DNA from: Phorcus lineatus
Lineage: Eukaryota; Mollusca; Gastropoda; Trochida; Trochidae
Direction of reading: 5' to 3'
Length of the DNA stretch: 64,000 bases
Assembly (NCBI GenBank): GCA_921293015.1
Contig: OV121081.1
Coordinates: forward strand, 73,549,022 to 73,613,021
Part shown: piece after piece, positions 29,501-61,720 of the stretch
Layout: the number at the start of each line of letters is the position of its first letter
Position numbering within the stretch: the stretch's first letter is position 1
The notes under the pieces: model-generated
Seen by the model: the letters and a program-made list of their open reading frames with translations, nothing else
Told to the model about the DNA's origin: nothing
Databases searched by the model: none
Position numbers and translations under genes: made by a program

Positions 29501-30158
29501 ACACCCCTTAATTAAAAAAGGCCCTACCGTGCAAATTCTTTCATGTTTTTCTCCGTAAGATAACGCCGTATTTTGGAAGACGTCTCATGTGTTTTTAGTT
29601 GCGTTCAGTGATGCCAATAATGTACCAACCAGGGACCAGTTATCTGCAGTAAATCTAGATCTGTTAAGCTGCTAATGGGAGATACGGGTCTTAAAGGGGA
29701 AACTCGATGTACCAAATTAAAAGACGGGACGGTTGTTTTTGGATCAGCCTATGTAGTCATTTATTCTTTAAACCGGACAATACTTTATGTGGAGAGTACA
29801 TTGGAGAGAAACCCTTTTCCGCATTAACGCTTATAGAGCCAGATCAAAGAAGATTTTGTTCTCAGCTTTCTCTTTCAATCTCGTCTGTCGTATTGACATC
29901 CATTATAAAATGCTTGGCAGGGTACTTTTTAGAAAAGAGAAAAACGTCAAACAATTCCTTAAAATGCAATTTAATATATTTATTCCGAATTTTCAACTCA
30001 AGCGCTATGCTCTGCTCTTGTTGAAATAGAGAAGGCCACGTGACCGATGTATCCCCAATGAACAGAGTGGCCATTACAGATATTTAGGAAGGTTACGCAA
30101 AATCCTGAAATTTCTCGGAGATTTGATTCCAGCCTACCACAAGTCTTGGAGGTTGTCA

Positions 30159-30706
30159 CTTTACACGAAATATCAGTTCCGATAATGCTAAACTTGCATA
30201 TAAATAAATGTCTTTTTTGAAATGATGTTTATCCTTTAAGGCATTAACCCAATCTGGATCAGATTCTGTTTCTGATGTTTCATGTTGAACAAAGTAACTG
30301 TTCGTCTCATTTTCCCCACTGAAGGACACATGATCAAAATCAGACTCCTCAAAACTTCTAATAAACTTTTCAGATGGACTTACTTTCCTCTTGCGAGTAT
30401 TAATAGTGATTATTGCCAGATAAATGAAAGAGCTGGGGACATGGACCCTTTAGCAATGCTTGCAAGGGGAAAGAAAACTCTACGCGGGCCTAGGAGGCCC
30501 ATGTCATGTGTTCATGTTATTTTTTGTTTAAAGATGTAATTTTGGGAAACTGCTTAAATCGGGAAAAGATGTTTTGTGCACATTTACAAATCAATACATA
30601 TGTGAGGACAACATGAACGGTCGGCAAAACTATGTCAAATTTGAACAACTGACAACACCATAAAGGTGCAGCGGGCCTCAAAAGCCCCAGTTATGGGCGG
30701 TAGGGG
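30159..30706 (-). mobile_element. piggyBac transposon remnant (5' end and transposase N-terminus)
   Basis: The right end reads, on the minus strand, TTAA (30707-30710) then CCCCTACCGCCCATAACTGG. This is a typical piggyBac terminus with its TTAA target, followed by GGGCTTTTGAGGCCC, a small inverted repeat. Inward on the minus strand is an open frame (about 30401 to 30159) reading RKRKVSPSEKFIRSFEESDF, then ETSETESDPDWVNALKD. This is the acidic, Ser/Asp-rich N-terminus usual in piggyBac transposases. No start codon is visible in this frame, and the DDD catalytic domain and Cys-rich C-terminus are missing. A possible degenerate left end, TTAA followed within a few bases by CCCTACCG, lies at 29512-29528. 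If it is real, the element is about 1.2 kb and internally deleted. The central 29.7-30.1 kb has overlapping frames that do not match piggyBac. Confidence 0.7.
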
Positions 30707-30710
30707 TTAA

Positions 30711-33700
30711 TCAAAACAGTCTTTTTATTACTAATGCCCCTCAATGTGTTTGTGCCGTTACTGCCTCTGCCATTAAGGCTTTGAATAACGCTCAGTCGAA
30801 CTACGAAGTACCAGGTTCGTGTGAGACCATAAGAAAGAGGCCAGTGTGCGCAGTAACTCGAAATTCACGATGTTGCACGACTTAACATTCATTCGGAATA
30901 ACCCGATTCGAAAAGCTTTTTAAGACACTTTACAGATGACAATAAGTTACGATCAGCTGGCAGTTCAGACCTCGATATTTATTCGATGTTCATCGCATCA
31001 TTGCGTGAGTGTTACATAATGATGCTGCTGTATTTCACACTAAACTTAAGCATTACTCATCAGGTATGATGTTGTCATTCTATTTACAACCAACTTTATT
31101 GGGATAATACAACATGGTCCTTGCATTGATTGCGTGCCGTTGAAATTGTAGCAAGTAGAGATCCGTCTGTTTAACTGATAGCTAGCTCAGGGTGACAACT
31201 TGCCTAGGTTTTTATAGCACTCATCCCGAGTTTTGACTTTAATTTAATGGATTTATCATATATACGCTTTCATTACAAGCTTGCCTAGGCCTGTTACACA
31301 AATAACACTACCTAGATCAAAATGGGTTGTAATCGTGTGCGGAAAACATGAAATTCTTTCTAAACATGTGTCATTTAATACCCATAACGTCAGATTTCTT
31401 AACATCATTAACACAAGTGTCCTATAAATAGTATATTGCTTGTTTTGGTACCAAAAATAGTATTATGTGAATATATCATTCCCCGCTGTCGCCACATTCA
31501 ATACTGTACTCAATAGTGGAAATATGACTCACTTCGCTCAAGACAAATTAAAAATACGAAAAACGATATAAGCTTGTAGCTGTCAAAGTATAATTCGATG
31601 TACAGAATTCATCTGTTCATGTGAAATGCAATAAAAAAAAACATCTTGAAAAATCAAATGTCAACTGACGGGTGTTTGATGTTTTGAATACAACAATCAC
31701 AAAACATGGTAAGTATTTGATATTTTACGACCGCTTTGTTGGAACGTAATAAGAATGAGATGGTTGTTTGATAATTTTAATATTGACGTTTTAAAATGTA
31801 TATTTTTTCAAGACAAATAACAAAATATCATTTCTATCCGATCAGTTTGTGCAATAAATCAAATACCAAGAAAAGTCCTATCTGTACTGTCTACCTTTTT
31901 CACGAAGATGTACTTCAAACACTACATTTTCATGATTTTTTACATGATTAAATTACACCGAATTTCCGTTGACGTAAGCTTAAATTTCAAGATCTTTTCC
32001 CCCAATAAACTGGTGACTAACTGGTTATATTCCATGATATTAGACATAGATGTGCAGCCGTTTGTTCATAACATGAAACACGTGAACGCATTGACTGCAA
32101 GTCGTACGTAAAATCCCACAAAGGAAGCCAATATTCATGCATTCAAATGTAGCGTGAAGAAGTCGAATTGAAAGACTTTGATACACATACATCTCTTCTT
32201 CTGTGCTTCCTGGTCAAAGATATTTTGTTTCCAAAATGAAATTTCTATCAATGGTTCAATTCATTCTTATTAAAGTAGAAATAATTCTTCAAAATTATGA
32301 CATATTCATTCATCTTTAAAATATTTATGAATACTCGTTTTTATATAACGATGCATTAATGCACTATGTATTCAGTTAACAGTAAATCTCGGTCACTTAG
32401 GACTAAATGTTCCAATAATTTACACTTCATATGAAGTTATCCTAATTACAAGAAACCACTGAGATTGAAGTCATGTAATGTTGCGAATGTTGAAAATTAT
32501 TAGGTGAGTCAGAGTGACAAATTGGGCTTGATAAGCTTTCAAAAATATTTCGGTCATTAAACAAGTAGATAATCGAATTTGTTAATCTACTGAAAGCAAT
32601 TCATAATGTCATTATGAGTGTTGCAATAAGCGTCGAAGATTCATATTGTTTTGTTTTCAAGTAATGTACAGAAACTTAATCTAGCTCCCATTTATATCGA
32701 CTTGAAAAAATGAATTCTAAAAAAACGAAATCGGAAGTCGTCTATAAACCTCTTAATATTGCCTCTTAATATCATACAATTATAAACCCATCAATATATC
32801 CAATTAGGGCACCCAAGCACTTTCAGTGTTCACATGGCCTCTCTCAAAATATCAACAGTGAAAACATTTACCATACTGCATCTTGATATCTAAATATAGT
32901 TGATATAAACCAAGCGTTTACCAGCATCTGTGAGAGGACCAATCACAGACGTCCTAATGAGCTAAACTTGATCACTGTGAAATTGCTTAAAATAACATGC
33001 ACAGAGTTGCTTCTCTGATCTAGAGGGTCCGTTCTCTGCATCCCACTATCAAATTATATTATCATAAGATCATTTTACTGAACTTTCGCATCGATGAGTT
33101 TTGTTTAAAAATCTGGAGTGCTGTGGAAACCAAAGCTAGCTAATTACTTTGAAGCATACCTCCCACAGTATATCTTCACACAAGCGAAAACTAATAACTG
33201 CTTATTCGATAAAGGTTTTTATTAATAAGAAACTTTTTTGCTTTCTATCGTCTTGTTTTTACTAAAGGTTTTGAATGTTTTTTTTCAAGCTTCATGGAAG
33301 TTATTTTTTCTCATGGATGCAATACATTAAAGATTAGGATCAGAGGTTTATGGTCATATATATGTCAGCGGAAATACTTGGCTTGGTTGTTCAATATTTT
33401 AAATGCGTCGTTCCTAGATGATCAAATCGATGTATGCCAAAACAGGAAATGCGAAATTGGTTGAAATCCTTTCTGCCCCCAGGGCTTTGTGGTTGGATTG
33501 AAATTTCATCATGTAGTAGACTGATATTAGTTCGAGTCAATCACGTCAGTAGTTATTGCACGTGTGCTATTACCAGGGTACTTTAAACGCTCTGGGCGAG
33601 CATATACCAACTAAGGGATCCTATCGTAAAGCAAACGAAATATTAATTAACCTTTACTTGAAATCAGCAAAGAAAACACATTTTCTGAAAGTCTCAAAAT

Positions 33701-33840: not shown

Positions 33841-34925
33841 TAAATTCATATGAAATTAATTGAAATAGATGGCGAGCGTGATATCCAACAAATGAGGCCG
33901 CAGAGAAAGGCTGGGTCTCGCATGAAACCTGACTTACAGACGGCTGGTGTTATTACTCCAGTTATTGGCTCTATAGTTGATTTGATGAAGACCGGTCAAG
34001 CGGAGACGGGCGTCAGACGAGCCGGGGATCTGAGACAAGCCGCCTCTCAGATGGGACATCAAAATAATCAGAATTATTTGTAAGTCAGACATTATGGTTG
34101 ATTTGGTAAAAGGGAAAGGCTGTTTCCGTCACGCTGAAAACCGTACGCGTTTAAAAATGTCTGCTCAGACGCAGGAAATACCTCTCGTATGTTAAGGTGG
34201 TATCTGTATCTACCACAAAAAGCATTTGATACGTAAATTGTTACTATTCCGTCATGGCTGGAAAGTCTCAAGTTGTTCTGCTAGGTTCTTATCTTTAGTT
34301 TGATAAATAGACAACGTAGTGTCAGTTTAATTTAGCTTTTGTTCAGAATTTGTTATGTTTTATCTATTGCTAATATTGAATTCGACCATGAAAGTGCTGG
34401 TTGCTCGATTCCGATTGGTTGATATTTCTGATTCAAAAGGCATCAAAACACGGTTGAAGTTGCTCTAGATACCCTAAAATCGTTTATTAATGTATTGCTA
34501 CATTAATGTCTTAACTATCCGACTTGTAACTTTTGAATAGGTATTATGCTTTTAAGTGAGATTGACCCTTTTTTAAAGGAACTACCTGTGTTTTATTTCG
34601 TAAAAGATGGTAACGCTACGCGACCGGTTTCCATTTTACATTTAATCGCTATCAGTCCAGTACAACATGTCTTTGATTTTCAAACACACTAGGTTTATCG
34701 CTTACTATCCTGTGACCACTGTGCCTATAGATATCGAAGTTTTCATATGTTTATACACTGTTATTTCCCCGTTAATTAGAATATGGGCCATCGAATATGT
34801 TGACACTGATAGGCGTGACGCCTGGACGTTTTGTTTGAAGTAAATTCATTACTTCTAATGAGTGGTCTCACCTTCGGTGATCTCCTTTCTCACCAGGAAA
34901 TGTCACGTTCATCGTACTATGGCAT

Positions 34926-34948
34926 GTTGATTGATTGATTGATTGATC
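34926..34948. repeat. (TTGA)n tract
   Basis: Five or so tandem TTGA units. Block B retains a shorter version near 50023. Confidence 0.8.
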
Positions 34949-35885
34949 ATATGGTTTTTGTGTGCATTACTGTCGTCTGGAAAGACAAAGATAACCAAAA
35001 TGCAGGCTTAGTTCGACGCTTTCTAAAGGATATGTTAGTAAAGGTGAAGGCGAGGTTACCACGGCAAATGTGAGTCGGAAGATTTAACCAAGAACTGTTA
35101 CATTCCAAACCTGCTGGTAAAGAAAACTTCTTGAACTCATGCGCCAAACCTTCAACATGTTAGGAATTTAAGCTAACATTCGCCTTATTATCAGGAATCA
35201 CGACTGAAGACAGTGACCGTCAATTACAACGAATACTTAATGTAATGATTTGTGCATATGCAAGAGTATCCATTTTAAGGGCATATATGAAATTATTTTT
35301 TAATGTATCACAAAGTAAAATCTGTAAGTAAAAATGCACGAACGGGCTGACAGGCACTCTTTCCGATGATGTAAAAGCAATTACACGAAACAGTTCGAAA
35401 ACAAACCCTTTAAAACTGCGATTCTAATTAGAATTTCATAAATAGTTCAGATTTCTATTTTTGATGTTTTACAAGTAAGACAAACTCAGTTCAGACAGTG
35501 CACTTTCTAGCTTGTGTATGAATCACAGGTGAAAAATCGTTAGTGAGGAACTTTTTACTGTCAACAAGGAGGTATCTATTCTGGCAATTATCTCTAGAAG
35601 GCCGGAAAAAAGGACGATGATGACTATATAACCTACCGCCGCCTACCGGGACAGAATAGACAACAGACTGTTACCTTCTTATTTTTTCTCGTTGTAACTC
35701 GCCTGATTTTTTTTAATTGAAAATGGTATGTTAGATGACACATTAGGATATGCAGAGACATGATTTGTTTTCATTTGAAAAAATATTCAACGAATAAAAT
35801 CACACTGATTCTTTCTTACTGAAAAGATATATTGTATACCGCCAATATATACCATCCAAGAAGGTTTGCTCCAGGTGGTGTAAAT

Positions 35886-36098
35886 GACTGAAATTGAACA
35901 CTAAAATAGTCAGTTAAAAAGGACAGAGCAGCACGCTACATGAACGTGTATTGACTACCGTTCGCCTTTGGGAGGATGAGAGTCTTCTGACTCATTCCGC
36001 TGTTGCAGGGTAACGATCCATCACCTCACGTCAGCAGAAGATTCCTAGTGCGGGCTATTACGTTACTCTGATTATTGCATGAGCATGTACCTATTGGA
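35886..36098. other. Highly conserved non-coding element, copy A
   Basis: 213 bp with one mismatch (35931) and no gap against 51018-51230. The next 187 bp (36099-36285) show about 22 mismatches, and outer anchors are lower still. All six frames are broken by stops or leave only short peptides (longest plus frame about 31 codons), so protein constraint is unlikely. Possible pairing includes GAGTC-TTCT-GACTC near 35966-35979, and GGGTAACG with CGTTACTC, an 8-bp stem with one G-U pair closing about 45 nt. TTCCGCTGTTGCAG inside it resembles a splice acceptor. It may be a structured RNA, a non-coding exon or an enhancer. It matches no snRNA, 7SK, U3 or SRP sequence I know. Confidence 0.75.
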
Positions 36099-36282
36099 AT
36101 TCACAACAATTACTCAGGAGCTGTCACTGAGCTATGAGATTGGCACTGAACACAACAGAGATGCCAATAGGCTTGGCTAAGTAAGAAAAGAGTCTGTGAC
36201 TGGGAAGACATCAGCATGCTAATTTGTCTACAGATAGCTTTTAACGATGTTATTTTTGTTTTCTTACGACATGTATTTAAAC

Positions 36283-36902
36283 GCACTAGTGCACACCGAT
36301 ATTTCTTTAACACAACGAATGCACAGATACTGCATATCTCTCGATATTATTCAAGAACCTCACTCAAATAATCTACCTCGTAAGTTATTTAACGAATATT
36401 TACGTATTCAGGGAGTAAAGTTGATTTTTGAAGACCGGAAGTATTTAATGTTACGGTACAATAAATCCGCATGAACTACGATATCGGAAATATTAAGATT
36501 TTGCTTATAACCAAAAAAGCGGAAACGGCAGCCGCTTTGGTCAATCTAATAGCAATGCTAATGCTGTGTTATTAAGTCGGTTTATTTAAAACATTGCTTT
36601 CATAAAACATAATTTATTATTTGTTCTCAGTTCAGAGTTTAGGTAAGTTCAACAGCTGCACATAATAAGTGTTCAGCCGCTTTCAACTGTCTATAATTTA
36701 TCCGTTTAGTGCACAGCTAACCTTAGATTTGTTATATGTCCAAGCCGACAGCGGCTGCCTAAATTTTTTCATTGTTGATTGCAGGTCAATTGTAAAGAAT
36801 TTTAAGTATTTCATTGCATCGATAGAAAGCTTAAGTGAATGCATAAGTCCTCGTAAACCTTAAAATAGCCAATTTAAACCGTAAAAGCGTGCACTAGTGC
36901 CT
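36283..36902. mobile_element. piggyBac-like MITE with preserved empty site
   Basis: The element is 620 bp with 14-bp terminal inverted repeats: left ACGCACTAGTGCAC (36283-36296); right, in reverse, AGGCACTAGTGCAC (36889-36902), one mismatch. TTAA flanks it at 36279-36282 and 36903-36906. Block B has one TTAA at the same point (51409-51412) with matching flanks on both sides, so the insertion and its TTAA duplication are read directly. TTAA duplication with short ends is diagnostic of the piggyBac superfamily. No transposase is encoded: the frames at 36247 and 36669 have no motif, and the first starts outside the element. The ends differ from the CCCCTACCG ends at 30.7 kb, so this belongs to a different family. 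Confidence 0.9.
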
Positions 36903-37845
36903 TTAAGTTTTATTGATGTACTTTGCAGTGTGGTGGCAATGAAGCCAGGACTCACTAAAGTTTGTTTGCTGACTGATGACGTGAGGAATGCCAAGACAAT
37001 AAGATTAACGTTTGCCTTTATACCCCATTAAGAAGAAAACTAATAATGGCTTGGAAAAAGTTAAAAGAGAAACCCTTTCATATTTCACTTAATAGCATTT
37101 CCAGAAAAAAAATGGAAACTAACCTTGTACATACGGGGCGGGTACGCCTCATGTTTGAGACCATGACAGGCTTTCTTGCATCATTAAACAGGTAGGTATT
37201 TTGCAACGTTGGTTTACATAAAATGTGGTTTTGACTCATTAGTCACCTTTACAACGTACGTTGTCGCGTAACTCCTGAACATTATTGTGAATTGATAGCC
37301 TGACATTAAATACATTTCGACTAAATTTCAGGAATTGAAGAAAGGTTTCATTCTATATATACTGTATAGAACAATTCATCCTGTGGTCTACACTACCAAT
37401 GAACCAATTTTTCTATACTAGGTTGACATTAGTTAAAAAAATTACGAATTATTCAATACCTAAAATTGCCCATGTGATGTCCCTGATATAGAAAACGAAA
37501 TTTGCAACGGTTCACTCATGCTCATATCATTATAGCTGTTTTTATTAAACATGTTCAATACTATTTGGGGAAAAAACATAACATATATTATTGCAGTTGG
37601 TTAAAGTGTCTGCATGAAATAATTATAACAACGCTAAGCATACATTTATACTATCGTGGGAACCATGTATCATTTCATTTCAATCTCCACAAGTGAGTGT
37701 AAGGGAAATAATGATAATTTTTATGTAAGCTTATTTTTCCGTCGATCCGATTGGTCGAGAAGCGATCACGTGTCAGTCGACAGAAAAGCATATTGACTTC
37801 ACTCCGAGTCCGACCAAAAGTGATATTGACTTGAAATAGACATAA

Positions 37846-37896
37846 TGACGTCAAACAGTTGTTACATGACGTCATGCTACTGTTACCGTGACGTCA
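37846..37896. promoter_or_regulatory. Three phased CRE (TGACGTCA) sites
   Basis: Perfect TGACGTCA octamers lie at 37846-37853, 37867-37874 and 37889-37896, that is 21 and 22 bp apart, or two helical turns. They sit in imperfect 21-22 bp tandem units. TGACGTCA is the binding site of CREB/ATF family bZIP proteins. The surrounding 150 bp is CpG-rich and has an inverted CCAAT (GATTGG, about 37750). An imperfect palindrome with ATGAACA/TGTTCAT arms lies at 37910-37938. The segment has no counterpart in block B. Confidence 0.6.
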
Positions 37897-37985
37897 TTTG
37901 ACCGGCATGATGAACAATTGATCAAAATTGCTGTTCATGGCTGTAGTTTTTTTTTTCATTCGTATTTAATTCGAAACATAATAAA

Positions 37986-38059
37986 ACAATTATGGACTGA
38001 TGAATTTGGTCAATACCTGTTAACAACAGGTATTGACCTCATCACCAGTCTATAATTGT
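37986..38059. repeat. 74-nt near-perfect hairpin
   Basis: Two arms of about 35 nt pair around a very short loop. Inner arm GGTCAATACCTGTT pairs perfectly with AACAGGTATTGACC. The outer arm ACAATTATGGACTG pairs with its partner with one mismatch, and a 3-4 nt bulge lies between. It could be a pre-miRNA-like hairpin or a snap-back MITE. The tiny loop argues against a standard miRNA. It lies about 90 bp from the CRE cluster in a segment absent from block B. Confidence 0.75.
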
Positions 38060-40859
38060 ATAAGGTAACTTGCTGAAGTAAGCATTCTGCTTGAAAAAAC
38101 AAGACATCCAATAGTCACGTTATTTATGTTATAACTTCCAATGCATACTATCTATTGCTTACAGTAGACATAAATTGCGTTAACATAAACATTGAACTTA
38201 ATTTATCACCCCTTCTTCTTTAACATCAAGTTGATCCTGATAAGAATAAAGACAACAGTCATCGAGTAGTTTAGAAACGAAAACAGCATTCTACAAATTA
38301 TTTTTAGTGTCGTTTGATTACTGTTTTTAGAATAGTTTGATATTTTGGCATCAAAATCCAAGTTTTTTCTTAAATTTGAATTTGTTTTATCCCACCGTAT
38401 GAAATACTCAGGATACAGTAGTCGAATTGTATATAAATGCCAGTCTGTAATCATTTCGTTTCCGGAGCCGAACCCTTTAACCGCTTATCAGATATTCCGG
38501 AAACTTTGAATGAGTAGTAAGCACCTACTGTTCCCTTTTACTATTTTAGAATTCTTAAAAAGTATCTTTTGTTTCCATCGAAACGTGTTGAATAAGGACT
38601 CCATAGGGATAGCTTCGTTTCCGACACACAATTCCACAACTGTTAATCAAGTCTTCTAAAAATATGCATGCAAGTTAGCCACCTACTGAAATTGTGGATT
38701 TTGATATTGTCATAATTATTTGATAATACTGTACCTTTTTCAATATCATAACTCAAGCGGCTTGACAGGATAAGAACTTATCCATTTTTACAGTACTTGA
38801 ATTAACACACTGCAATTTCTGAGTATTGATACATGACAAGACATATTTTAAGAGTCCTATAATGTAATGCCAACTGTGTTGACGTAGATAATGGAACAGT
38901 TAGTTTACTCAGATGTGACAGAAAATAATATGTTTGTCTATGAACCTAGTATAGTATGTTTTAAGATAAAACCTTTCTGGGACATTCCGAGATCTCGTTT
39001 TTTTAGTTGATAGAATATTTATATTTCGTTGCAGAATCAAATGGTTTTTTTTATTGCAAATGTATATATACTTTAACATACTTATTTATTATTGATCACC
39101 TTTCAACGATCAGTGGTGGGGTTTGCATGTCTATGTGCCTACAAGTCAAAGTATAAATACAGATGATGTGATCATAAAAAATATGTTCAATTAGGGAGTA
39201 AATAACATTAATTTGAATTAGTAGTTTAAAAGGAATTTGCCAACATTTAAATGCATGATTTCCTCTTTTTATTCCATCCTTAATGTCATGATTGGGATAT
39301 TGTGAATCCCAATGTCACTTGCTCATAATATCAGGATAACTAATCCCGGCCTTACGTTATTGGTTAACTTTGTAAGGAAGATTTAACACATCATTGGCTT
39401 TTTTATTTAGAATTCCATTAATGACATAGTTTAAGATGTGGTTTGAATCCGTTTAGTAAGTGGAGAAAAGTACTCGAATTAATGTAATACCCCCAATTAA
39501 TTTTTCTGAATTATGTAATCCGTTTTGTAGTTTTAGAGGCATGTCAACTTCAAATTTAAATTGAATGGAAGAGGAGGCGGAGATATAAAGAAATAAATGG
39601 CAACCATCTTTTTTGGTTTGTCAAAGATAAATATCCTGTGTTACTAGTTCTGAGATTTCTCTTGCAAGGATTCGACAAGAGTTGTAAAGTGTATTAAGTT
39701 GGCGAAGTTGACAAACACAAGTATTGTTCGAATATATGTCAGTAAAACTCACTATTATATGATGTTTTCATTGCAAGACAACTTTTCATGGACGCGATCT
39801 TCAAGACATTTTAGTGCGAGTAGAGTTGTCATTGGCTGTAATTCGGCAGCTCAATAAGGAACAAACACCTATACTCTTGTAAGAGAAATAATCTATTAAC
39901 GCTATGAGTATATGCTAATAAACAGAGAAAAATCGTTTAAAAGATATACAAAACAGAGGTTTTATCAACCTTTTTTTCTTTCAATTCCTGAACTGCACCT
40001 AACCCTGCAACCTAAAACGATGAATAATTTTCCAAATCCATGTTCATCTTGGTGCATGATACTAATGCCGCTGTTATCATGTGCCAAACTTGATATCTTT
40101 CTTGCAATTGCCTAATCCACGGTTATTGAACTTATGGAAATAACTTATGTAAATTTAATTATTGATTATTAAAGTAATAATTATAAATAAGTCTATCTTT
40201 TCAAGTATCCTTAACGAACCAGTTTAAATATCGTTACACATGCAAAGCAACTCATGACTGAATAGGCAAATGTGATGACTTATTTCGTAAACATTTAATT
40301 CGGTAACTGCCTTACAATGTAACAAAGTACAAGAGTTGATATCCTAATGCCAATATTTGTTAGACCAACATTATTTGTAGTAATCCAATAGTCTGATGGC
40401 TGAGAAAGTCCGTATGAAGACGGGGAAATCAGGGCTTGTCAGCCTACTATAGCTGACTTGATAAGGGAGCTTTGGCATGTCATGTAGTGTCCTGGTTAAT
40501 ACAATCAAAGCTTATTTCTCTAATCAAATGAAAGACAAACTGTTTTATTCATTCAGCGTTTTACGCCGTCTCTATTATGATATCCTGCGATTGATTGATT
40601 AGGGAGGGCTGTACCTATAGTCGTACAAGCATAAACTGATCTCCCGAGGAATAGACAATGCTTATGATTACACAGTTGATCAACTCTTGAGGTCGCAACA
40701 TGTCTGAGTTTGTTTCTGAGATGAATACAATGTACAAGGGGAAAACAGTTACAAAATGGTGAATAAGTTTTATTTTCATATTGGTCTGTACTAAGTAGTC
40801 AATGTATTCAGTATTTAATCTATAAACATTTAATTAACTAACTCCCGAATTATAGCCCC

Positions 40860-43479
40860 TCCAACCCACATTTCACAATATATACATGAGTCAAAACATA
40901 CATGTAAGCACACATTATCAAACACATTGTGGTAATACAAAACATAGAACACATTATTTACTTATAATTCATTGATTGTATCCTTGAAGGTATCGTTTCC
41001 TGTAGATGTTGCATAAGGGTTTCATATATGGTTGTTAAAATGTTACACGACTAAAGAAATGTATATCCCTGTATAATGTTTCCAACATTTCCTGGTTTAC
41101 AACATTTAGTTACTATCTAGTATCAACCACGTTGGTTATATGCATAAGCCGCCATGTAAAGCGCACAGAAATATCCAAAAGGAAATAGTGGGATTCTAAA
41201 TAATGGATTTTTAAAAAGGGAAATGTCGAGAGGGAATATAACTCTCGTACGAAATTGGTAAAATTTGGATTTTATACTTTATCAGTTACACAAGTACAGA
41301 TTTTTTTTGGTATAAAATTAAACAGTTTAGAATGCAAACACGAAATTATTTCGTATTACAAAGGAAACTACCAATGTACTGTGTGAAGAAATAAAAAATA
41401 ATAATTTTGGAGAGCTTGGTCCAGTCCAGAACCAATAGATATTTAATATAGCTATAGCGTGTATTGTTCGTATGTGTACTGCTTATATGGAAAACATCTC
41501 CTCACATGTAGAAAATTAGATTTGGAGATTTCCCAACAGTGGAAGTGCAATAGACGGCGTCAATATTACAGATAGTAGCACGAGTTGAACCTCGTGGTGA
41601 TTACTTCAGTTGTGATATTCTTAAATCCTAGAGGCGATTTGTTCCTGAAGTCAACGATTCTCTCTGTGGCCTGGTAGGGTGCATGATGCACGTGTGTTAG
41701 GCAAATCAAAGCATTTTCAAGGGATCCCTCCCCTAGCTGACTGAAAAGCATGATATCGCAGGATAAGCATGCTAGTGCAGAGCAATTTGCGAGTTTTGCG
41801 GTGAAAGATCGAGATCGACATTTTGCTACCCTCACTCTTTTACTCTACTGTATAGAGGGTGTTGGTGTTTTACATTTGCCCACTGACAATACGAACTTCC
41901 TGTGGAGCGTGATTGATCGTAAAATACTTCAAATGGTTAATCTTGTCAACTATCTGACTTTTGGTCTATAGATGAGGTCTTTGAATTCAACGTGTTGATA
42001 CCTTATTCATAAACACATGCTCATGTATTATTCTCCCAAATGATATTTTACTTATATGGCGAGCAGCAACTAAATATCTAATGGTCTGATGCCTTTCTTA
42101 TATTATTTTATCAAGAACATGTATGGATGTTTTCCTCAGTGGTGACATCAGGTGACTTGTCATTAGTAAATATACTGTTAATAGTAAATGCAGCACACCA
42201 GCTAAACGCGGCTAAATGATGTATCAGAGTCACCAAATGTTTGTGACATATCATACTTTATTTCCTTTTGGCTGTATTCTAACGCAGATACCTGATCACT
42301 GCTCTTCATTCAGTTCTGTCTATTTTGGTGGTACCAAGGTGTACCACTGAAGTACGGTGATACCATTAACGTGTATGCATCTCGCGATTGTCATATCATA
42401 TAGACTCCAATGGAACATACTTCCTGAATGTACAATACAGTTGTGATAATCTGATAAGATTCTCTTAGCACACAATCATATTAAGTGGTTAAAAAAATAA
42501 TACAACCCAAGCAAGGATGACATTTATGCAAAGCAAATCAGATTTGTAGCATACAATGTAAATATTCTAATGTATTCTCCTAAATATTGAGTTAACAGAT
42601 ATATGGTACATTTTATTTAAGCAAGAAAGCGGCACTTGGTAAATGCAGAGAATGTGTATCATGTTCCAGACTAAACCAAAAAAGCTTCGTCTCCATGTAG
42701 CTTATGTGGTCATGTTTCAGGAGGTTTGTTTTCGCTTTGAAGTGTTGCGATATTTTTGTCTACTGTTATCTTAACTCTTATTTTGTCAATTCTCCTCAAT
42801 GCCTACACCCTACCAGAAGAATATTTTGTTAAGGAAACTGTTAATTTTATAATGATTCAAAATCGTTGGGCCGGGTGAATTAAGTTGAGAGGAAATATGG
42901 TCCAAAATTTAGATTGGAAACCTTTTCTCGTATCATCATTTGTCATTTTGGGGTAGAACTATTCAATAGTCTGCCATTAACATTTGAGATAAAGTAGGTA
43001 GATATTGAAAAATGAAAGTAGTTGTGATGCATGTATTGAATATAGGCGGAATCATCTGTAAAAGATATCAAATCCAGTGGTTTGATTTGCAAAACTGAAA
43101 AACGACTCATGTAGAGCTAATTGCTTTTGCAAAGTTTTCTGTTACATCGATCTAGTACTTCTAACTATAGTTTAAGTAGCTTGCCCTTATGGATTTCACC
43201 TGAAATGAGAATACTGATTGCTTACGCCATATTATTACTTCAAAGAACATGTTGTTCTAGACCCATATTAACCTTAGTTTATAACGACAAAATATGCGAA
43301 TGTTGCAACCATTTAGAACACCTATCGAATATTCACTCTTTTCAACTGACGTAAAATAGATCAAACTTATTTTACTTACAACCAAACACGTGTTATTCAT
43401 ATATATCGTGTCATCGTGTATTTATTCTATTGTTTGAAAATTGCACAATTTCTTTTCTCCTTTGATAAGTTTTAAGATG
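40860..43479. other. Unassigned part of block A
   Basis: Alignment to block B becomes too weak to follow by eye. No gene recognised. Opposite-strand frames at 41566-41971 overlap each other and carry no known motif. Confidence 0.4.
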
Positions 43480-43651
43480 TTAAAACTGTTTTGGTTATTT
43501 ACATACATAATAACGTTTCTCAGAAAAGTACCTTAGAAATACTTATTTCTAATTCATTAAATACTGCTTTTGACGTTCAATACGTTTTAAATATGCCATA
43601 TCATGCCATCAATAAATTCTTGATTTTAAAAATCCCTCTTGAGTTATTTAA

Positions 43652-44506
43652 ATCCTTGTTTTTCCTAACAAAACCAAAACTGAAGAGATACCCATATTAC
43701 TGTCCGGAGATTTTAATGCTCGAGTTGGTTCTAATGATGATTATTTGATTGAGAATGAAAATGACATAGATTACCTCCCTTTATCTGATTTCTATTTGCC
43801 TGACTATTTTGACGAGCCAAGAGCGACTGAAGACAGTATAACCAATAAGTTTGGTCTTGCACTCCTGGAATTATGTAAAGTGTGGGGCATACACATTGTG
43901 AATGGCAGAAAGCAAGGGGATAAGACGGGGTCGGTTACTTGTATTACCCATAACGGTTCAAGCCTTGTTGACTATATACTAGCCTCAACAAATTGTTTTA
44001 ATGCTATTGTAGACATGACTGTGCATTCCAGAACGGATTCCGATCATTTGCCACTTTCTTGCACTTTTAACCTCTCTTCTGATCAAGTGGTGTTTAACAA
44101 TAGTATTGTTAATGAGGGAAACATAGAATGTTATCAACTTTGTAAGTTCAAGCCAACCAAAAGCATTGACCTTCAATTTGAACTCAATATAACGTCTGAT
44201 ATAGCCTCCGATATAACTGATGACTTCAAACATTTGGTACACTTAAATGTCAATGCTGCAACTGAGAAACTGGTGGAACTTATGCAGCATGCGGGTAGTC
44301 ATTTACGTGTAAATAACACCTCTAAAATACTTAAGCAAAAACCCATCCAACCTAAATGGTTTAATGCAGACTTTGAGCAAGCTAAGCACAAACAATCTTT
44401 GCACTTAAATATGTTCCGAAAGTGTCGTTCTAATGAGAATCTCAATAGTTACACTGATGCTAAACGTAACTTTAAAAAACTGTGCAAGGATAGGTCACGG
44501 CAATAA
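43652..44506 (+). pseudogene. LINE apurinic-type endonuclease domain
   Basis: The open frame reads EEIPILLSGDFNARVG (GDFNARVG at 43706-43729; the D and N belong to the catalytic/metal site of exonuclease-endonuclease-phosphatase proteins). It continues with GIHIVNGRKQGDKTGSVTC and GSSLVDYILAS, and ends the domain with SRTDSDHLPLSC, where SDH (44039-44047) is the conserved C-terminal active-site block. The first part of the fold, including the usual N-terminal Asn and Glu blocks, is missing or garbled. After the domain the frame runs on through a Lys/Asn-rich linker (QPKWFNADFEQAKHKQS) to a stop at 44504-44506. Confidence 0.88.
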
Positions 44507-44576
44507 AATGAAATAATTACTGATGAAATATGTTCAGCAGCTACCAATGGTGACTGTAAGAAGTTTTGGTTAAAAC

Positions 44577-45470
44577 GGGAAAATCTCCGGGTACTGACGG
44601 AATACCACCTGAGTTTTTTAAAAATGGAAATTTTATAATTCCATATTTAGAATTACTATTTAATGCGTATTTCCCGACTGCTGGAACGTAGGGATGATTA
44701 TACCATTGTTTAAAAAAGGTGATAAGCACGATCCTAACAATTATCGTGGCATTTCTTTGTTGAATATGATGGGTAAAATATTCACATCGATCCTTGACTC
44801 AAGAATTCTTGTCTGGATGGAACTACATGAGATTTTACATGAATGTCAAGCGGGATTTCGAGCTGACTATTCAACAGTCGATAATATTTTTGTACTTCAA
44901 TCTCTGTGCCAAAAGTATCAAAGAAAGCCCAAACATCGGTTTTATGCAAAATGCTTTTGATTATGTGAATAGAAATAAACTCTTATATGTTCTTCTTACA
45001 AAAGGTGTCCATGGTAAAATGTTTAATTTGTTGAAAGATATGTATGATAAGGTATCTGCATGTGTGAAAGTCGGAAATAAGAGGTCAGAAATATTCGACA
45101 CGTCTTCTGGAGTAAAGCAAGGTTGTATGTTAAGTCCAGCTCTATTTATATTCTTTATCAACGAGCTTGTGGATGAGATGAAGAAATGTGGATTAAGAGG
45201 AATATTTGTCAAAGATGGTTTAAATGATATTTTATTACTGCTTTTTGCAGATGATGTTACTTTGCTCGATGACACTGTAATTGGCTTGCAGAAAAAAACT
45301 AGATACACTGTATCGGTTCTGCTCGAAATGGGGTTTTGAAGTCAATCTTGAAAAATCTTGTTGTTTTCAGAAATGGTGGTTATTTAAAGAAATCAGAAAA
45401 ATGGTTCTATAATGGTACACAAATGAAAGTTGAATCGCATTATAAGTATTTAGGTGTTGTTTTTACTACG
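44577..45470 (+). pseudogene. LINE reverse transcriptase domain
   Basis: Successive frames give GKSPGTDGIPPEFFKNG (RT block 1), MIIPLFKKGDKHDPNNYRGI (block 2), ECQAGFRADYSTVDNIF (block 2a/3), FDYVNRNKLLYVLL (block A region), GVKQGCMLSPALF (block B, QGC) and LLLLFADDVTLLDD, where FADD (45244-45255) is the catalytic pair. The thumb-like part KYLGVVFTTKLIW follows. The first catalytic Asp region is shortened (CFDYVN instead of FVDFxKAFDxV). At least two frameshifts lie inside. The preceding linker is abnormally short: FWLK is followed almost at once by GKSPG, where relatives have about a hundred residues, so an internal deletion is likely. Confidence 0.88.
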
Positions 45471-46425
45471 AAATTGATATGGACAAAAACATGTGAAACA
45501 CTGAGTTTACAAGCAAAAAAAAGCTTCGTACCCCATTTTTAAAATGTTTACGGATTTTCCAAATATATCTTTGGAAGTTGCATCAGCGATATTTGATAGT
45601 AAAGTAGCTCCGATATTATTGTACGGTAGCGAAATCTGGGGCCACTCATACCGTGCCCACATTGAGAAAATCCAAACTCCAATTTCAAACGGTTTTTGTG
45701 TGTTAATAAAACGATTTCTTCCAAAGCTATACTTGGAGAAATTGGTAGAACTCCCTTATGTGTTAAATATTTCATTAGATGTATAAAATATTGGTGCAGA
45801 ATTATACATATGGACGATCACCGTCACCCCAAAGCATGCTATGATATGTTAAAGCAACAATATGACCATGGCAGTTGCAGTTGGGTCTCGCACGTACGTT
45901 TGCTTTTGTTTCGTACTGGCTTTTCATGTTTGGATAACACAAGAATGTGGAAATATCGATGCGTTTGTTTTTGAATTTCGACAAAGATGTAAAGATATTG
46001 AAATTCAAAATTGGCATTCCAGGGTAGCATCGTCATCTTTTCTTAAATACTATGGATCAATCAAGTCTGCCCTGGAACCAGAGAAATACATCTTAAAACT
46101 TAATCCCAATAAAGATTTCATACCTATTTTATGCAAATTTCGATGTCAAAGCCATAAGTTGAACATTCAACAACAAAGATATAAATATAATGTTGATATA
46201 CATAGCGATACACTTATTTGTGACAAATGTGATTTTAATGTTCAACAAGATGAATTTCATTTTCTACTTGTGTGTCCCTTTTATTCTTTGCAAAGAAAAT
46301 TGTATATACCCAGCTATTATCATACTTTTCCATCACAATTAAAATTCAAACAACTTTTAGCAACATCAAATGTAAATGTAATTAAATCGGTTGCGATATT
46401 TCTTAAACGTAACCTGCCTGTGTAA
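45471..46425 (+). pseudogene. LINE C-terminal region with zinc-finger-like motif
   Basis: Pieces in changing frames read SAIFDSKVAPILLYGSEIWG, KYWCRIIHM, NKDFIPILCKFRCQSHKLNI and, near the end, CDKCDFNVQQDEFHFLLVCP (46219 on), a C-x2-C-x9-H-x4-C arrangement seen at the C-terminus of Jockey/I-type LINE proteins. The last frame closes after FLKRNLPV at 46425, followed by about 100 bp of 3' untranslated sequence and the (TTC)n tail. Confidence 0.8.
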
Positions 46426-46528
46426 AAAATCAACTTTTATAATCATTTGTTAACCCGTCCATCCGCAAACTATATGTATTATTTCAAATGATTGTACTCT
46501 TGGCCATGAGGCCTCAAATACTGAATAA

Positions 46529-46559
<31 letters not shown>

Positions 46560-46560
46560 C

Positions 46561-49110
46561 CAAAACTGAAGTGACAACAACTGGAGTGCTCTCAATATAT
46601 TTGGTGTTTTCTACTACCAAAGTGTAAACATTTTGTATTGACCAGAATGGTAGAAGCATGACAAACGTGTGTCAGAAGTGAAGCTTCAAATTTAGAGTGT
46701 TAGCTTACGTTCAAACGCGAATTTACCAGCTCTGTGGATTTGGCTTCATTTGAGACGCTGTTCCTGTAAGCTTGTTCCTAAATGATTCTATAACAGTAAT
46801 GCTAAGTTTGATTAAAACTTAGATTATTGATTACAATACAGGTATTTAACACTGTAAATATTTCTTCAGCATTACTAGTGTAGAAAAAAAAAATTAAGCT
46901 CCAATTAAAAAAAACATTTTTTTCTTACTCAACCTTTTTACTAAATGGACGTGTCTTGTAACGTATACCGTAGAGATTACAACATTTATATTACCGATTT
47001 ATTTTTTGGATATATTTATAGTGCTATTCTGCACTAGTCTCTTGTGACACTTTTATGAACAAGGATTTGAATAATAGCATCCGAATTATTTTTGTGATTT
47101 GGCACACTTTAGTGAACCCGTCTTTACTACCACAGGGTATTTTCTGTTAAAGTATGTTTTAGGTTATCTGTTTCAAAGCCAAAATTCTGAAATCCTTCTA
47201 CACGTTTTGGCAAACATTTAAATGAAACAAAAACATCTAAGCTTAAAAAATAGTGACAACTACATTAACGTTTGACGTAAAATTGGAATTATTTTCAAAA
47301 TTTATTTACAGCTGCCGATTCATTTGATGTAATACACTTATTTCAATCATTGTATATTTTCCCAATGATGTTAAATTAAATGAATTTATTGATCATTATG
47401 AATGTGTTATTTATTGACTTACGAATTACAGTTACAGAAACACTCCATGATTTGACGTCATCACATATCGAAAACTTTATCATTGTATATTGAGAAGTAG
47501 TAACTGTTGCAATTCAAAGCTAAATGATTCAGTATAGCAACATTATTGATGTCTAGAGTCCTGACAATGATGTGTGCCAATTAGTCAAACGCTCAGTCAA
47601 AATGTTCAGAGTTGATTTGTGCTTTCAAAAAGCAGGAAATATTCGACATTTTTCAGTGTGTCACCATTGAAATCAGTCATTCATTTACTTTTTGTTATTT
47701 TTCGAAATACATTCTCTAGGAAGAAGCAGTTAAGTGTTACTTGAGTTTGGACCTGAATGTTTCAAATTCCAGCTCATAAATAACAATGGCGTCAATCTTC
47801 ATTCGACAGCATTTTAATTGGTTGCCTTCCACCTGTATATTAACTATCAGTTAATGAGCATTACATATTTAATATGGAGACTGACAGGGTTATGAATGTG
47901 GGAAAGCCAGTACACAATACACTTATTAGCTAACAAGAGCTAACTGGTCGACTAACAATACAGTCAGTGTGACATTTGGATTGCATCATTAGAAAGGTGG
48001 CTGGGCATTCTAAGCAAGTTAATCCTGGTGGGAATTCATTATCTCACTAAAGTGTGATATGTTTGAAAGGTCAAATATAACAAATTAATAAAGGCCAGGA
48101 CAATATATTCCTGAGAGTGCGAAAAATAGATATCCATATATTGTTGAATCTAGAGTTTATATGTGAGAATTTTTGCTTTGGAATATGTATTGACGAGTCC
48201 AGGGTAATGTACTTATCCACGTCCCTAATTGTAATGTGACATGTCACTGCTTCAGAGGTATCTACATTTATGCATTGCTGTCTTGTTTGTTGCAAAGTCA
48301 TTGAAAGTGAAAGTCAATTAAAATTTTAATTGTTTTGTATGTTCTGCTCTGTAAAATCATCAGTGATAATATATTTTAGTCTTATTTATGCAGTAATAGA
48401 AAAGTGAATGTAAGATATGATTTCGCATTTATAAAGATCCTTCTTGAATGCTTCATATTGAAAGGCGTTAACGTTATTGTTTTGTGTACATAGTAAACTG
48501 GAGAGACATTGTGAAATAAATATATATTTAATGTTATTGTGGTACAGTTGAGCAAATATTACTGCTGAGAAAGAAAAATCAAACAACATAACGTTTGATG
48601 GTAAAAGCTTCAGGTTGATTGTTCTGGCTATCGTTTAGCTAAAGCTGAATAATGAATAACTACCAATTAAAGAGACTTAAAATACTAAGAAACCATAACA
48701 GAAAAAGTAAGCATAGTGTTAATTTATGCTATTTTGTTATATTCTACTTTAATGAAATGTGTGGTTGGTATGTCCTTAAAGGGAAAGTAGAGCGTTTTAT
48801 TTGAATACATAGAGAGGTCTAAAAAAAGAAATAAATATTTCCAATAGCAAGACACTATACAGTTCTAAAACAAGCGTACAGTGTTCTTACCGGTTTGATT
48901 AATGAGATGTTTGATAAGATTATATATTTGGCATACATTAATGAGTATTGGGTACACTTTAAAGAAACAAAATTTTCTAAAAGCGTGCTACTACCCCTTT
49001 ACGAGGACGTCTGATGTTGTATGCTTTAATTGTTAATTCAATCCCTTAAATCTTTTTTATAATACATACAGAGATTTTGATGTGTCCTAATAATTCAGTA
49101 TTATTCTCGA
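46561..49110. other. End of block A and spacer between the duplicates
   Basis: 46.92-47.18 kb aligns with 58.36-58.58 kb. The rest up to 49.11 kb shows nothing recognisable. One TGACGTCA lies at about 47454. No gene found. Confidence 0.45.
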
Positions 49111-51017
49111 TTTAATGTAAATATATTTGCATTACAAGAAGACAACTTTAAATAGATGGCCAGCGAGACAAAAAACAAATGAACAGGCTGGGTATCGCTT
49201 GAAACCTGACTTACAGTCAGCTTGTGCTTGTACTCCAGATATTGGCTCTATACTTGTGTTGATAGCAACAGGTCAAGCGGAAACGGACGTCAGATCAGCC
49301 GGGATCTGAGAAAAGCCGCCTGTCATCTACGACATCATGATAACAAGAAATATTTGAATGTCATCCATAATGGTTGATAAGGTCAAAGGGAAAGGCTGTT
49401 TCGGACACACCGAAATCTGCACGCCTGTAAATGTATGCTCAAACGTACAAAAATCCCATGTATGGACGGTGTCTGTATCATACCACTAAAAGCATTTAAA
49501 ATTAATTGTAACTATTAAGTCACTAGAAATTGTCAAATGTTTCTGCTAGATTCCAACTTGGTTTTTTATTTGGGTGTTTTAACACCTTTTCAATTAAGCT
49601 GTTATCCTCACTACGAAACAGCATTGTAAGTGTTCACAAAGCCCTTATATATCTCTCTATTTTGAAGCCTGAAATGTTAACTTTATGGTAAGTGCGAAAT
49701 TACAAACTCGCTTGAAAAATAATTCCAATTATCAATAACAATTTTAAAATAATTTGACGAAAGGTCATTTTGAACCCGATACTTTGATAATGGTGTAATG
49801 ATATCATTTGACCAGTGTGCCAATATATATCGACTTGTTCATATGTTTATTACTGTGTGTTACTTCCCCGTTTAGAAGAATATGGGATATCGGGTATTGA
49901 AATTTGAAGTTGTCGAACCTGAACGTTTTGTTTGACGTAAATTCATTACTTCTAATGAGTGGTCTCACTTTCGTTGACATTCTTTCTAAACAGAAAATAT
50001 CAGGTCCAGCTCGTTGGGATGGTTGATTGATTGATCATGTAGCAAGTGTATCAATGCGGTCTGGAAATACACAGGTGAACAAAATGCAGACTACGTTCGG
50101 CGCTTTCTAAGGAATATGTTTTTGTAATGTAAGGGGAGGTAACCACGACCTGAGTGTAAATAAAAAGCTTGAACAATTAACTGTTACATCCCAATCCGGC
50201 TTGTAGAGAGAACTCTTTGAACTTCTGCGCTCAAGTTACACATTTTTTATTCATGCTAAAATTCGCCTTAACATTAAGAATCATGACAGAAAACAGTGAC
50301 AAGGAATACTTAACATATTGATTTGTGCATTTGCATCAGTATCAATTTTAAGGGCATTTAGATGAAAATATCTCTCACCATTTTAAAGATTGCCATTTGT
50401 CTTTAATCTATCACAAAGTGGAGTGTGCAGGTTTTGAATAATGCACTCTTTCTGATGATGTTAAAGCAATTACACGAAACAGTTTCGAAAAAAATCCTTT
50501 CAAACTGTGATTTTAATTAGTATTTCATAAATAGTTCAGATTTCTATGTGTGATGTTTTACAAGTAAGACAAACTCGGTTCAGACAGTACACTTTCCAGC
50601 TTGTGTATGAATCACAGGTGAAAGGTTGTTAATGTGGAACTTTTTACTGTCAACATGAAGGTATTTTTAGTATAAATTATCTCTAGAGGGCCAAAAAACA
50701 GACGATGATGACTTTATAACCAACCGCCTACCAGGAAAGCATAGGCAACAAACTGTTGTATTCATTTTTTCATTACCAGTATAGTGTGTAATATAATATG
50801 TGAATCCGTTTCGAAATGGCACTTTGAAAGATATGTAACTGCATTTATGCAGAGACAGGTTTCTTATTCTAGAAACAATATCAACGAATCAAATCAATCA
50901 GATTCTTTCTCACTGAAAAGAAATCATGTCTACCACCCTGTATTATGACTATGAAACACTAACTGGACAACATATGGGCCAATCATTTAAATGAGGTTTG
51001 CTCCAGGTGATGTAAAC

Positions 51018-51230
51018 GACTGAAATTGAACACTAAAATAGTCAGTTAAAAAGGACAGAGCACCACGCTACATGAACGTGTATTGACTACCGTTCGCCTT
51101 TGGGAGGATGAGAGTCTTCTGACTCATTCCGCTGTTGCAGGGTAACGATCCATCACCTCACGTCAGCAGAAGATTCCTAGTGCGGGCTATTACGTTACTC
51201 TGATTATTGCATGAGCATGTACCTATTGGA
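51018..51230. other. Highly conserved non-coding element, copy B
   Basis: Matches 35886-36098 at 212 of 213 positions with no gap; the single difference is at 51063. Identity drops at once on both sides. The same internal stems and the same stops are present in both copies. Confidence 0.75.
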
Positions 51231-51408
51231 CTTCATAACAATTACTCAAGAGCTGCCACTAAGGTATGAGATTGGCACTGATCACAACTGAGATGCCGTT
51301 ATGCTTGGCCAAGTAGGAAAAGAGTCTGTGACTTGGAAGGCATCAGCATGCTAATTTGTCTACAGATAGCGTTTAACGATGTTATTTTTGTTTTCCTAAT
51401 ACTTGTAT

Positions 51409-51412
51409 TTAA
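51409..51412. other. Empty TTAA target site matching the block A MITE
   Basis: The context TTGTATTTAAGTTTTATTG is continuous here, whereas block A has 620 bp plus an extra TTAA at the same point. This shows the insertion post-dates the duplication, or that this copy was never occupied. Confidence 0.9.
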
Positions 51413-54400
51413 GTTTTATTGATGCATTTTGCAGTGTGGTGGCAATGCAGCCAGGGTTCACTAAAGTTTGTTTGCTGACTTACGACTTGACGAATGCCAA
51501 GACAATACGATTAACGTTTGCCTTTATACCCCATTAAGAATAAAACCAATAATGACTTTGTCAAAGTGAAAAGAGAAACCTTCATATTTTAAGTAATAGT
51601 ATTTCCAGAACAGTTGGCTAATAACATAAAAAATTGCATCATTACATAGATAGTTTTTTTTGCGACAACGATTTACAAAACAGGTGTTCTTGATCCATTA
51701 GTCACCTTTACGAAGTACTTTTTCGCGTAAATCATGTGTAATTTACCGTGATTTATTAGTCTGACATAAAAGACTTACGGACTGACCTGTAGGAATTGCT
51801 TACGGTTTTCATTTCATGTATACAGCTGTATAAGAGACTTCATCGTGTTGACTACACTTTGAAACTATTGTATCTACGCTGGGTTAGCGAAATCGAAATT
51901 ACAGTTGCTTATTCAGATTGTTATATAAGCCGATGTTGGAAACATGTTGAATACAATTTGGAAAATAAAATAACAGGCGATTCTACACTATCAACTTCCT
52001 TAAGTGAGTGTAAAAATAAATAAAGGAATAGATAATTGCTTAGTATGCTTTGCACTAATGCGTACCCATGGAACATCAAGAAAATGTTGTTTCTTTTTTA
52101 TAATCTACCATCAGATACTGTTTATTGCCTGAAGAAGAAGTGATCTGCATTTATATTTATCAGATACATTTATATTTAGCATATACAATAATATAAGCCC
52201 TTTATCCCTTCGTCTACTGTTTCTGTAGTTTGTTACTACCTTTCAAGAGGTAATCTCAACTTATATCTATTTAATCAATAAAAATATTCTTAAAGCTTGT
52301 TATTTGCTGATGTTTCCTGATAAGCTTCTAATATTTTAAGCATCGACATGAAACGCTTTCGGCTGTTTACATGAGGTTTGAAATAAATTAAATGCATAAA
52401 CTGTAATCTAAGTGGTTTGGAATAAAAAAACTGTAAAAAATGGTTGTATATATTTTCTTATCAAGATGGAATTTAAAAGTGCTCAATTGCAAAAAAAGGA
52501 AATAATGCTTACTTAGAAGGACAATATGCAACACTATGAAAAGGAAACCTCAACAAGAAAATAAGGAAGACTCTAAGGATCTTATACAGCAACGAAGCAG
52601 AACTTTTTTTTATAACATAAGACATTTTTAAAGTTGCTTGACATACGCCTTGTTATTTTTATACCACTGATAACATATTTTTTTCCCGTACTATCCCTCA
52701 AGTACTTTGAATAGATCAGAAGTTGGTAATAACTGTACTTGATTAACAAGGATAGCTATCTTATCTTCCACAATTAGGCATATCTTATCAGTCAAATAAT
52801 GTAATTCCACTTTAACGATTATTTTTTACTGCCGTAGATGCTTATTAGTTTCAGATGTGATAGAAGAATTTTTTTACTGTGAATGTAGTAGTTTAACTTT
52901 CTCGGATAGTCCGAGGTCTAATCTCTTAAGTTGAAAGGATATGTATAGTCTGTCACAGCTGGAACAATACATATGGTTTCTTGATATATATGGTTATCAG
53001 TATAAGTACTGTTTCATTTCGTGAATACCATATGTTTTTAAATTTCTAGGAAATACATATGGTAAATTCTGTGGGAAGCTCATAAGGTGATGGTTACCAT
53101 TGAAGATTTAGTGTGTTAACAACAACATACGAAGTAAAAATTGAAGTATGTACTTGTATGTAAACGTTATATCCCATTAAAACATAACGCGATTGAATGT
53201 AGAAAATTTGGTATTATCATTTAGCCTGTCCGCCTGTGTATGTTAAATTCAGAATCCATCTTATTTTATTAGTAACATATCTTGCCTTATAATTTAAGCC
53301 TTTTTCTACTTTTGAAATAGTTGCCTATCTAGCATTTATTATAATTTTTAAATAATATATTTTCGTAGAATATATATAATTTATTGGCTGTTACAACTTC
53401 CTTGTGTATCAAACTTGTAATATTGACCACAAAAAAATAGATTGCACATTAATAAACTTTAGATTATGTGACTTGAGGAACGTGACACCAACATAGCAGC
53501 CAGGCCCTTCGAAACCAGCAAGATAATCAAAAATGTAATCATTGTTCATATAGGTTGATCCTATCGTCACATTACTTATCTAGTTTATATATTTTCAATG
53601 TTATTATCTAGAAAGCTACAAATTTGAAAATATGAAGATTGTTAACACAGAACAAATTAAAAGAAACATAGAAAATATGATAACGAATTTTAGAAATGAA
53701 GTTTCCTAATCGTGAAATAATCAATACACAAGTTGCATCTGAGCCTCTACAGAAAGATAAATCAGGTACTATTTAAGGTAAATATGCATAGCTAAAGATG
53801 TGGCTCGAGTCTGCAGAAGAATCCTTGCAATGTTATTTAGTATGAAGTAAACTCTTAAATAGTCTTTTCTGTATAACGTTATCGATATTGTATTTTCAAG
53901 AGTATCCCAACTTGAATATGAGAATGGTGAATATAGGTATTGTCTAGTCTGTCATAAAAGATGAATGTCCTTTATCATCAGCTTTGACATTTCTTCTCCA
54001 CTTGTAGCTGCAAAGACAAGTCTTCTTGACAGAACATAATCACAACTGAGTCATAGTATATGCCTTGGTGAAATCAAATGGTTGAAATTCAGTAGCTACT
54101 TTCTGGGAGAAGTCCGAGAAGGACTCGAACATGTAGAGGTCAGCGTTAGGAATTATGAATTGAGCTCCTTAAATTGGTAGATAATACACGAGCTACGATG
54201 TTTGTATTTACTGTTATTTCAGTTCCTCTCAGATATGTTTATAACATTTTCATTCAATGATTGGCGTATGTTATTATAGTAAATAAGAAACAAACACCGA
54301 TAAAACCCTGTAAGAAGTAAGAAAATGCCCTACCACATCGGCTTCTTTCCAACAAATATTAGTATAACATATTAACACTAAACATTAGTTTTAATACGTT

Positions 54401-57050: not shown

Positions 57051-57062
57051 AATTTTAATGAA

Positions 57063-61500: not shown

Positions 61501-61720
61501 AATGAACGTTGTGCCACAACTATTTCGCTCATTTTTCATGCTTTTCCCGACTGGTAATGTGTACACTCGTATTCTTCATTTTGATAATATATATATGTAT
61601 TTATTTATTTCACGTAGTTGCGAAAGTCATGTCTCAGATTTGCCTCCGCAAAAAACGTGAAATAAGTCTTCCACTTTGCACAAAGTATATAATTAATATG
61701 TCACAACGTTAAGGTTTCAG
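58600..61720. other. Unassigned sequence
   Basis: No gene or element recognised. The 114-codon frame at 58814 begins at a TTG and has a length compatible with chance. Confidence 0.4.

Follow-up and report, generated by a model that had tools for sequence, protein, structure and literature searches.

Two nearly identical copies of a non-coding segment

Two copies of a 213-bp non-coding segment in the genome of Phorcus lineatus lie in a head-to-tail tandem pair, about 15.1 kb apart, and align ungapped with 212 of 213 positions identical, while the sequence around them differs by 12-25%. As judged from the sequence, the segment is probably best explained as a recent interlocus gene-conversion tract. 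The window analysed is the whole 64-kb stretch of DNA at C1:73549022-73613021, and the assembly searched was that of the same genome (957.8 Mb, 74 contigs). The segment and its immediate homology are as follows.

35886 to 36098, no strand assigned: near-invariant segment, copy A; matches copy B at 212/213 positions, with flanking mismatches at 35885 and 36099
51018 to 51230, no strand assigned: near-invariant segment, copy B; 212/213 identical to copy A
35874 to 36282, no strand assigned: gap-free homology piece with the segment, copy A; 409 columns, 25 mismatches
51006 to 51414, no strand assigned: gap-free homology piece with the segment, copy B; counterpart of 35874 to 36282

Pairwise comparison within the window reproduced the ungapped agreement of 212 positions reported in a first-pass annotation of this DNA, and the sole difference between the copies is a G/C at 35931. 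In the 409 columns, whose left limit at 35874 was placed by eye (the full gap-free piece has 415 columns from 35852 and is the longest one in the alignable block), the mismatches fall at 35878, 35885 and 35931, followed by 22 from 36099 onward, and the segment takes only one of the 25. The right neighbour (36099-36282) is mismatched at 22 of its 184 columns, and its 88.0% identity matches the value of about 88% given earlier for an adjoining 187 bp; the short left piece (35874-35885) is mismatched at 2 of 12 columns. The change at the segment edges is abrupt, from 12% right next door to 0.5% inside (95% interval of the mismatch rate within the segment, 0.0001-0.026). Similarly, the Jukes-Cantor distance is 0.005 in the segment, 0.13 next door and 0.31 in the rest of the block, and the ratio of the segment to the surrounding block is 0.015. 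The GC content of the segment, 0.451, is reached by 1.8% of 213-bp windows, and its CpG observed/expected ratio of 0.83 is unremarkable beside the 0.80 of the window.

The identity of the segment is not due to chance. In a run test of our own in the style of GENECONV (not the GENECONV program), which presumes even mismatch rates and alone cannot separate conversion from local constraint, the longest identical run was 167, and 2,000 shuffles of the mismatches of the block reached at most 50; within the 409 columns 35874-36282, P(run>=167) was 3.5e-5. The run thus lies beyond the mismatch distribution, as expected of a conversion tract. None of 200,000 permutations of the 409 columns yielded 213 consecutive columns with one mismatch or fewer.

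The tandem duplication and its later insertions

33860 to 49146, approximate, no strand assigned: tandem unit A, from scores against shuffles; contains a LINE insertion as well as a TTAA-type element
49147 to 60500, right limit approximate, no strand assigned: tandem unit B; 46912-49145 aligns with 58346-60499
33860 to 37394, no strand assigned: slowly diverging non-coding block, unit A; 75% identical to unit B outside the segment
49147 to 51858, no strand assigned: slowly diverging non-coding block, unit B; counterpart of the unit A block
36283 to 36901, no strand assigned: A-only insertion, MITE-like, with terminal inverted repeats and TTAA-type flanks
43450 to 46450, limits approximate, unit A: broken LINE-type retrotransposon with an RVT_1 Pfam match

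The blastn blocks of units A and B are collinear. Over 2,634 aligned columns with 37 gap events, the A-only insertion being left out, the block 33,860-37,394 is 76.8% identical to its counterpart, and 74.8% over 2,421 columns once the segment is removed. Outside the recognisable blocks, homology is visible only as an alignment score above those of 20 shuffles, the printed identities being inflated; unrelated DNA gives an identity of 0.63-0.65 under the same settings, and scores were used instead. On this scale, 37,395-40,294 scored 1056 against unit B (maximum of the shuffles, 796), 40,746-43,450 scored 785 (642) and 46,912-49,146 scored 848 (598). The stretch upstream of 33,860 (score 483, shuffles up to 537) and the short gap 34,289-34,705 (score 90, shuffle maximum 148) did not rise above their shuffles. 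The above-shuffle scores, together with the lack of signal upstream of 33,860, place the unit junction near 49,146/49,147 and indicate that much of the duplication is near saturation. The duplication is longer and older than the earlier estimate of about 75-80% identity for its remainder suggests. The unit size is about 11-12 kb of non-coding DNA when the later insertions in A are excluded.

Other conserved pieces occur in the block, with exact runs of 26 to 32 (e.g., 35433-35534 and 36209-36263); these pieces are also above average in likeness, so the block as a whole looks constrained. The A-only insertion at 36283-36901, which is missing from unit B, lies rightward of the segment and breaks the conserved block there, and its arms (36277-36294 and 36889-36906, TTAA-type flanks included) span 18 nt and are 94% complementary. 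The LINE is likewise absent from unit B, judged by spacing, and contains an endonuclease-like frame at 43652-44506, judged by eye.

Further pairs of short blocks with 72-76% similarity are present in the window (13588-13793/18317-18517, 15419-15523/19884-19995 and 21587-21694/26944-27050), and are perhaps another old tandem duplication or repeats.

A profile search of the surrounding 264 kb located a partial third copy at window coordinates 70,189-73,200, beyond the window, which is homologous to about 40,000-43,350 of unit A. In one of its blocks the third copy is 65% alike to A and 64% to B, with A and B 72% alike; in another it is 69% alike to A, and B does not align (44%). It also contains the piece 43,051-43,293 of A that B seems to have lost. 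The segment is missing from the third copy (70,189-73,200), which was discarded as an outgroup for this reason. A large repeat array, open in several frames, follows at window coordinates of about 77,400-82,200; on one of its strands the unit reads as, or nearly as, GGESILGLMHITYTGK.

Copies of the segment in the assembly

A 213-bp query found two places in the assembly (E<=0.001), and a 409-bp query also found two, even at E<=10. A query with the unit B block matched itself and pieces of A. The genome search skips very common words, and these counts are of places found and no proof of rarity. A mobile element or multicopy gene family, inserted in or homogenised across both units, has nothing in its favour beyond the identity itself, and could be undercounted by such a search. 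The two matching places largely refute this reading; in both copies, moreover, the homology runs on ungapped past the right edge of the segment. We regard it as extremely improbable.

An assembly or polishing artefact, in which the sequence of one copy was written into the other, would leave a similarly isolated patch of identity. On the other hand, the copies stand 15 kb apart with flanks that are 75-88% identical, which reads should presumably distinguish, and they differ at 35931. Such an artefact is accordingly very improbable.

Coding capacity of the segment and its surroundings

Stops occur in each of the six frames, 2 to 7 per frame, in both copies of the segment, which bears out the earlier statement that all frames are closed and that protein constraint is no explanation. 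Pfam found no family at the segment in the six frames over copy A or over copy B. The segment is thus non-coding in both copies by stop counts and by Pfam, as is required of an ultraconserved element. A coding explanation was rejected on the basis of the six-frame stop counts, a comparison of open reading frames between the paralogues, and a Pfam search with X at the stops.

Pfam was run over most frames of the window (the exceptions being about 30,003-33,500 and 41,003-45,000 on the plus strand and 60,003-64,000 on the minus strand, with the flanks lying outside the window), and the sole match above the cut-off was the reverse transcriptase RVT_1; DUF5951 (E 0.3), DUF4214 (E 0.19) and DDHD (E 0.067) stayed below it. 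In these scanned frames, no protein-coding gene was recognised beyond the LINE. The 100-kb flanks on each side were judged by eye, using frames of at least 120 aa and frames of at least 60 aa with a GC content of at least 0.42. Their recognisable frames are mostly transposon pieces, several long frames could not be placed, and one frame at 152,009-152,401 resembles what we take to be a THAP-type domain. A host gene with short exons may therefore be present.

In a look for developmental genes nearby, none of the 150 scored homeodomain candidates (of 354 in the genome) proved to be near the window, and the nearest scored one on C1, at 76.8 Mb, is about 3.2 Mb away. Elsewhere in the genome, C11:13430818-13507666 is a tandem array with units of about 2.8 kb, in which one weak homeodomain-like match (E 2.7e-5) recurs at 18 places, in 17 cases within a 133-aa frame. 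At C17:21009457-21987645, about 1 Mb of sequence carries a row of ten homeodomain matches, each on the plus strand, which resembles a Hox cluster.

RNA families and folding

35990 to 36046, minus strand: possible hairpin within the segment; -21 kcal/mol, z -2.98, equalled by 2 of 200 shuffles

Another account of the segment would be a gene for a structured non-coding RNA, probably transcribed from the minus strand, whose structure selection has preserved. In the whole window, no Rfam family reached its gathering threshold; a search of 35,700-36,350 at E<=10 gave a single match (E 7.7), which lies beside the segment and falls far short of its cut-off. The window contains no tRNA. This agrees with the first-pass annotation, which knew of no RNA family that fits: no match touches the segment. 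The two stems proposed there are both present in the minimum-energy fold of the plus strand, but the fold of the whole segment on that strand equals its shuffles (z 0.09), and that of the minus strand reaches z -1.28. Across 106 windows of 100 bases, taken from both strands of four stretches, the mean z was -0.08, and the four windows below -2 were all on the minus strand.

The local signals on the minus strand are stronger. The window 35940-36039 folds at -34.6 kcal/mol, with z -3.52 (100 shuffles) and z -3.30 (200 shuffles), although a shift of 8 bases weakens the latter to -1.60; the stretch 35966-36049 reaches z -2.86, which 0 of 200 shuffles equalled. The predicted hairpin at 35990-36046 was picked post hoc, after the window scan, and is only suggestive; the copies are identical across it, so covariation cannot be counted. 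In addition, the minus strand carries five T at 35916-35920 (AAAAA on the plus strand), a run that could act as a terminator for polymerase III. By eye, splice sites were weighed too, as was the idea that the minus-strand hairpins are of H/ACA type; both were dropped. The structured RNA proposed earlier thus finds little support in Rfam or in the folds of the whole segment, with one post-hoc minus-strand hairpin at z of about -3 in its favour, and we consider an RNA gene improbable.

Constraint as a possible explanation of the segment

The segment could be an ultraconserved cis-regulatory element, an enhancer or part of one, on both copies of which purifying selection has acted since the old duplication. 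The non-coding block that holds the segment stays 75% alike while the duplication elsewhere is near saturation, and the GC content of the segment is above background. The setting, in which the LINE is the only coding sequence recognised in the scanned frames of the window and the recognisable flank frames are by eye mostly transposon pieces, points the same way. The segment also contains TGACTCA at 35988, overlapping CATTCC at 35993, and GCATG at 36077 and 36083. We take these motifs to be putative AP-1, TEAD and Rbfox-type sites, respectively.

Among molluscs, squid and octopus are reported to share 1187 candidate non-coding elements, each 100 bp or longer and 95% or more similar (PMC9023564). 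Against such selection, both copies would need to evolve at about 1.5% of the rate seen in the block around them, which is itself constrained, and the edges of the segment are abrupt rather than graded. Moreover, segmental duplications in vertebrates are reported to be depleted of ultraconserved elements (Derti et al., cited in PMC11276968), so paralogous ultraconservation would be unusual. Viral and prokaryote pattern scans and a phage blastn search gave no match, as expected for phage, and are uninformative on orthologues. An ultraconserved cis-regulatory element is, on balance, possible but rather unlikely.

In favour of conversion, finding no more than one mismatch among the 213 columns has a probability of 5e-11 at the neighbour's 12%, and of 2e-9 at 10.3%, the rate that a three-state fit made without the segment gives for its most conserved class. 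If a constrained class had 5% mismatch, the probability would rise to 2e-4 and the segment would be less extreme. Hidden-Markov fits made without the segment put the most conserved class at 16.1% mismatch with two states, the fit of best BIC, and at 10.3% with three. When the segment was included, a four-state fit isolated a class of 0.8% mismatch with a better likelihood and a worse BIC (2774, vs 2728 for two states and 2727 for three). BIC favours two or three states, and consequently a separate mismatch class for the segment is not demanded by the hidden-Markov model.

Probable gene conversion between the tandem copies

Gene conversion, which the first-pass annotation had left beside selection as one of two options, appears to be the better fit, and is favoured because of the sharp edges (12% falling to 0.5%), the tract length, the tandem pair, the two copies found and the mismatch of 12-25% around the segment; the ordinary CpG content agrees with it. 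The paralogues are linked, 15.1 kb apart, and share a local gap-free homology of about 410 columns. Interlocus conversion has a mean tract of the order of 10^1-10^2 bp and acts mainly above 80% identity, being possible below it (PMC3924818), and in C. elegans moderate divergence may not prevent conversion between linked paralogs (PMC3966223). Several points argue against conversion: the neighbouring sequence, at 88% identity, is a poor substrate; other conserved pieces nearby indicate that constraint is at work there; the hidden-Markov fits do not call for a mismatch class of its own; and the high GC content of the segment (0.451) is also explicable by a functional element.

The probable course of events is the following. 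About 11-12 kb of non-coding DNA was long ago duplicated in tandem, and the two copies then diverged. Selection had probably already preserved the similarity of the wider block, which would thereby have offered the local identity that conversion needs. Within the longest surviving gap-free homology, one copy may have served as the repair template for the other, and about 213 bp would have been overwritten, from just right of 35885 to just left of 36099. One mutation, at 35931, would have followed. The conversion event and its recency are what we infer from this pattern, and conversion inside a constrained block is its likely form.

If the segment is a conversion tract, it would be a clean, short non-coding tract that imitates ultraconservation, and would caution those who look for conserved elements by comparing paralogues. 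If it is under selection, it would be a duplicated ultraconserved element, apparently of an invertebrate and of a kind reportedly missing from vertebrate duplications, and an enhancer candidate with a built-in replicate. That such an invertebrate regulatory element stands here as two tandem paralogues, both held at 99.5% by selection, perhaps with the help of conversion, while the rest nears saturation, seems to us doubtful.

Comparison with known systems

In a literature survey judged by titles and abstract openings, with most subscription journals outside its scope, no comparable published case was recognised. The segment resembles vertebrate ultraconserved elements and paralogous conserved non-coding elements in that at least 200 bp are almost unchanged and non-coding, with no gene recognised nearby. 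Unlike vertebrate ultraconserved elements, whose depletion in segmental duplications is noted in PMC11276968, the identity here is between paralogues of one genome. The segment also departs from typical interlocus conversion tracts: it is non-coding, it is known from a single assembly, and its surroundings, at 12-25% mismatch, lie near or below the 80% identity above which conversion mainly acts (PMC3924818). In its long identity run, its sharp edges, its tract of about 200 bp and its significant run test, it is like the interlocus conversion tracts of tandem paralogues.
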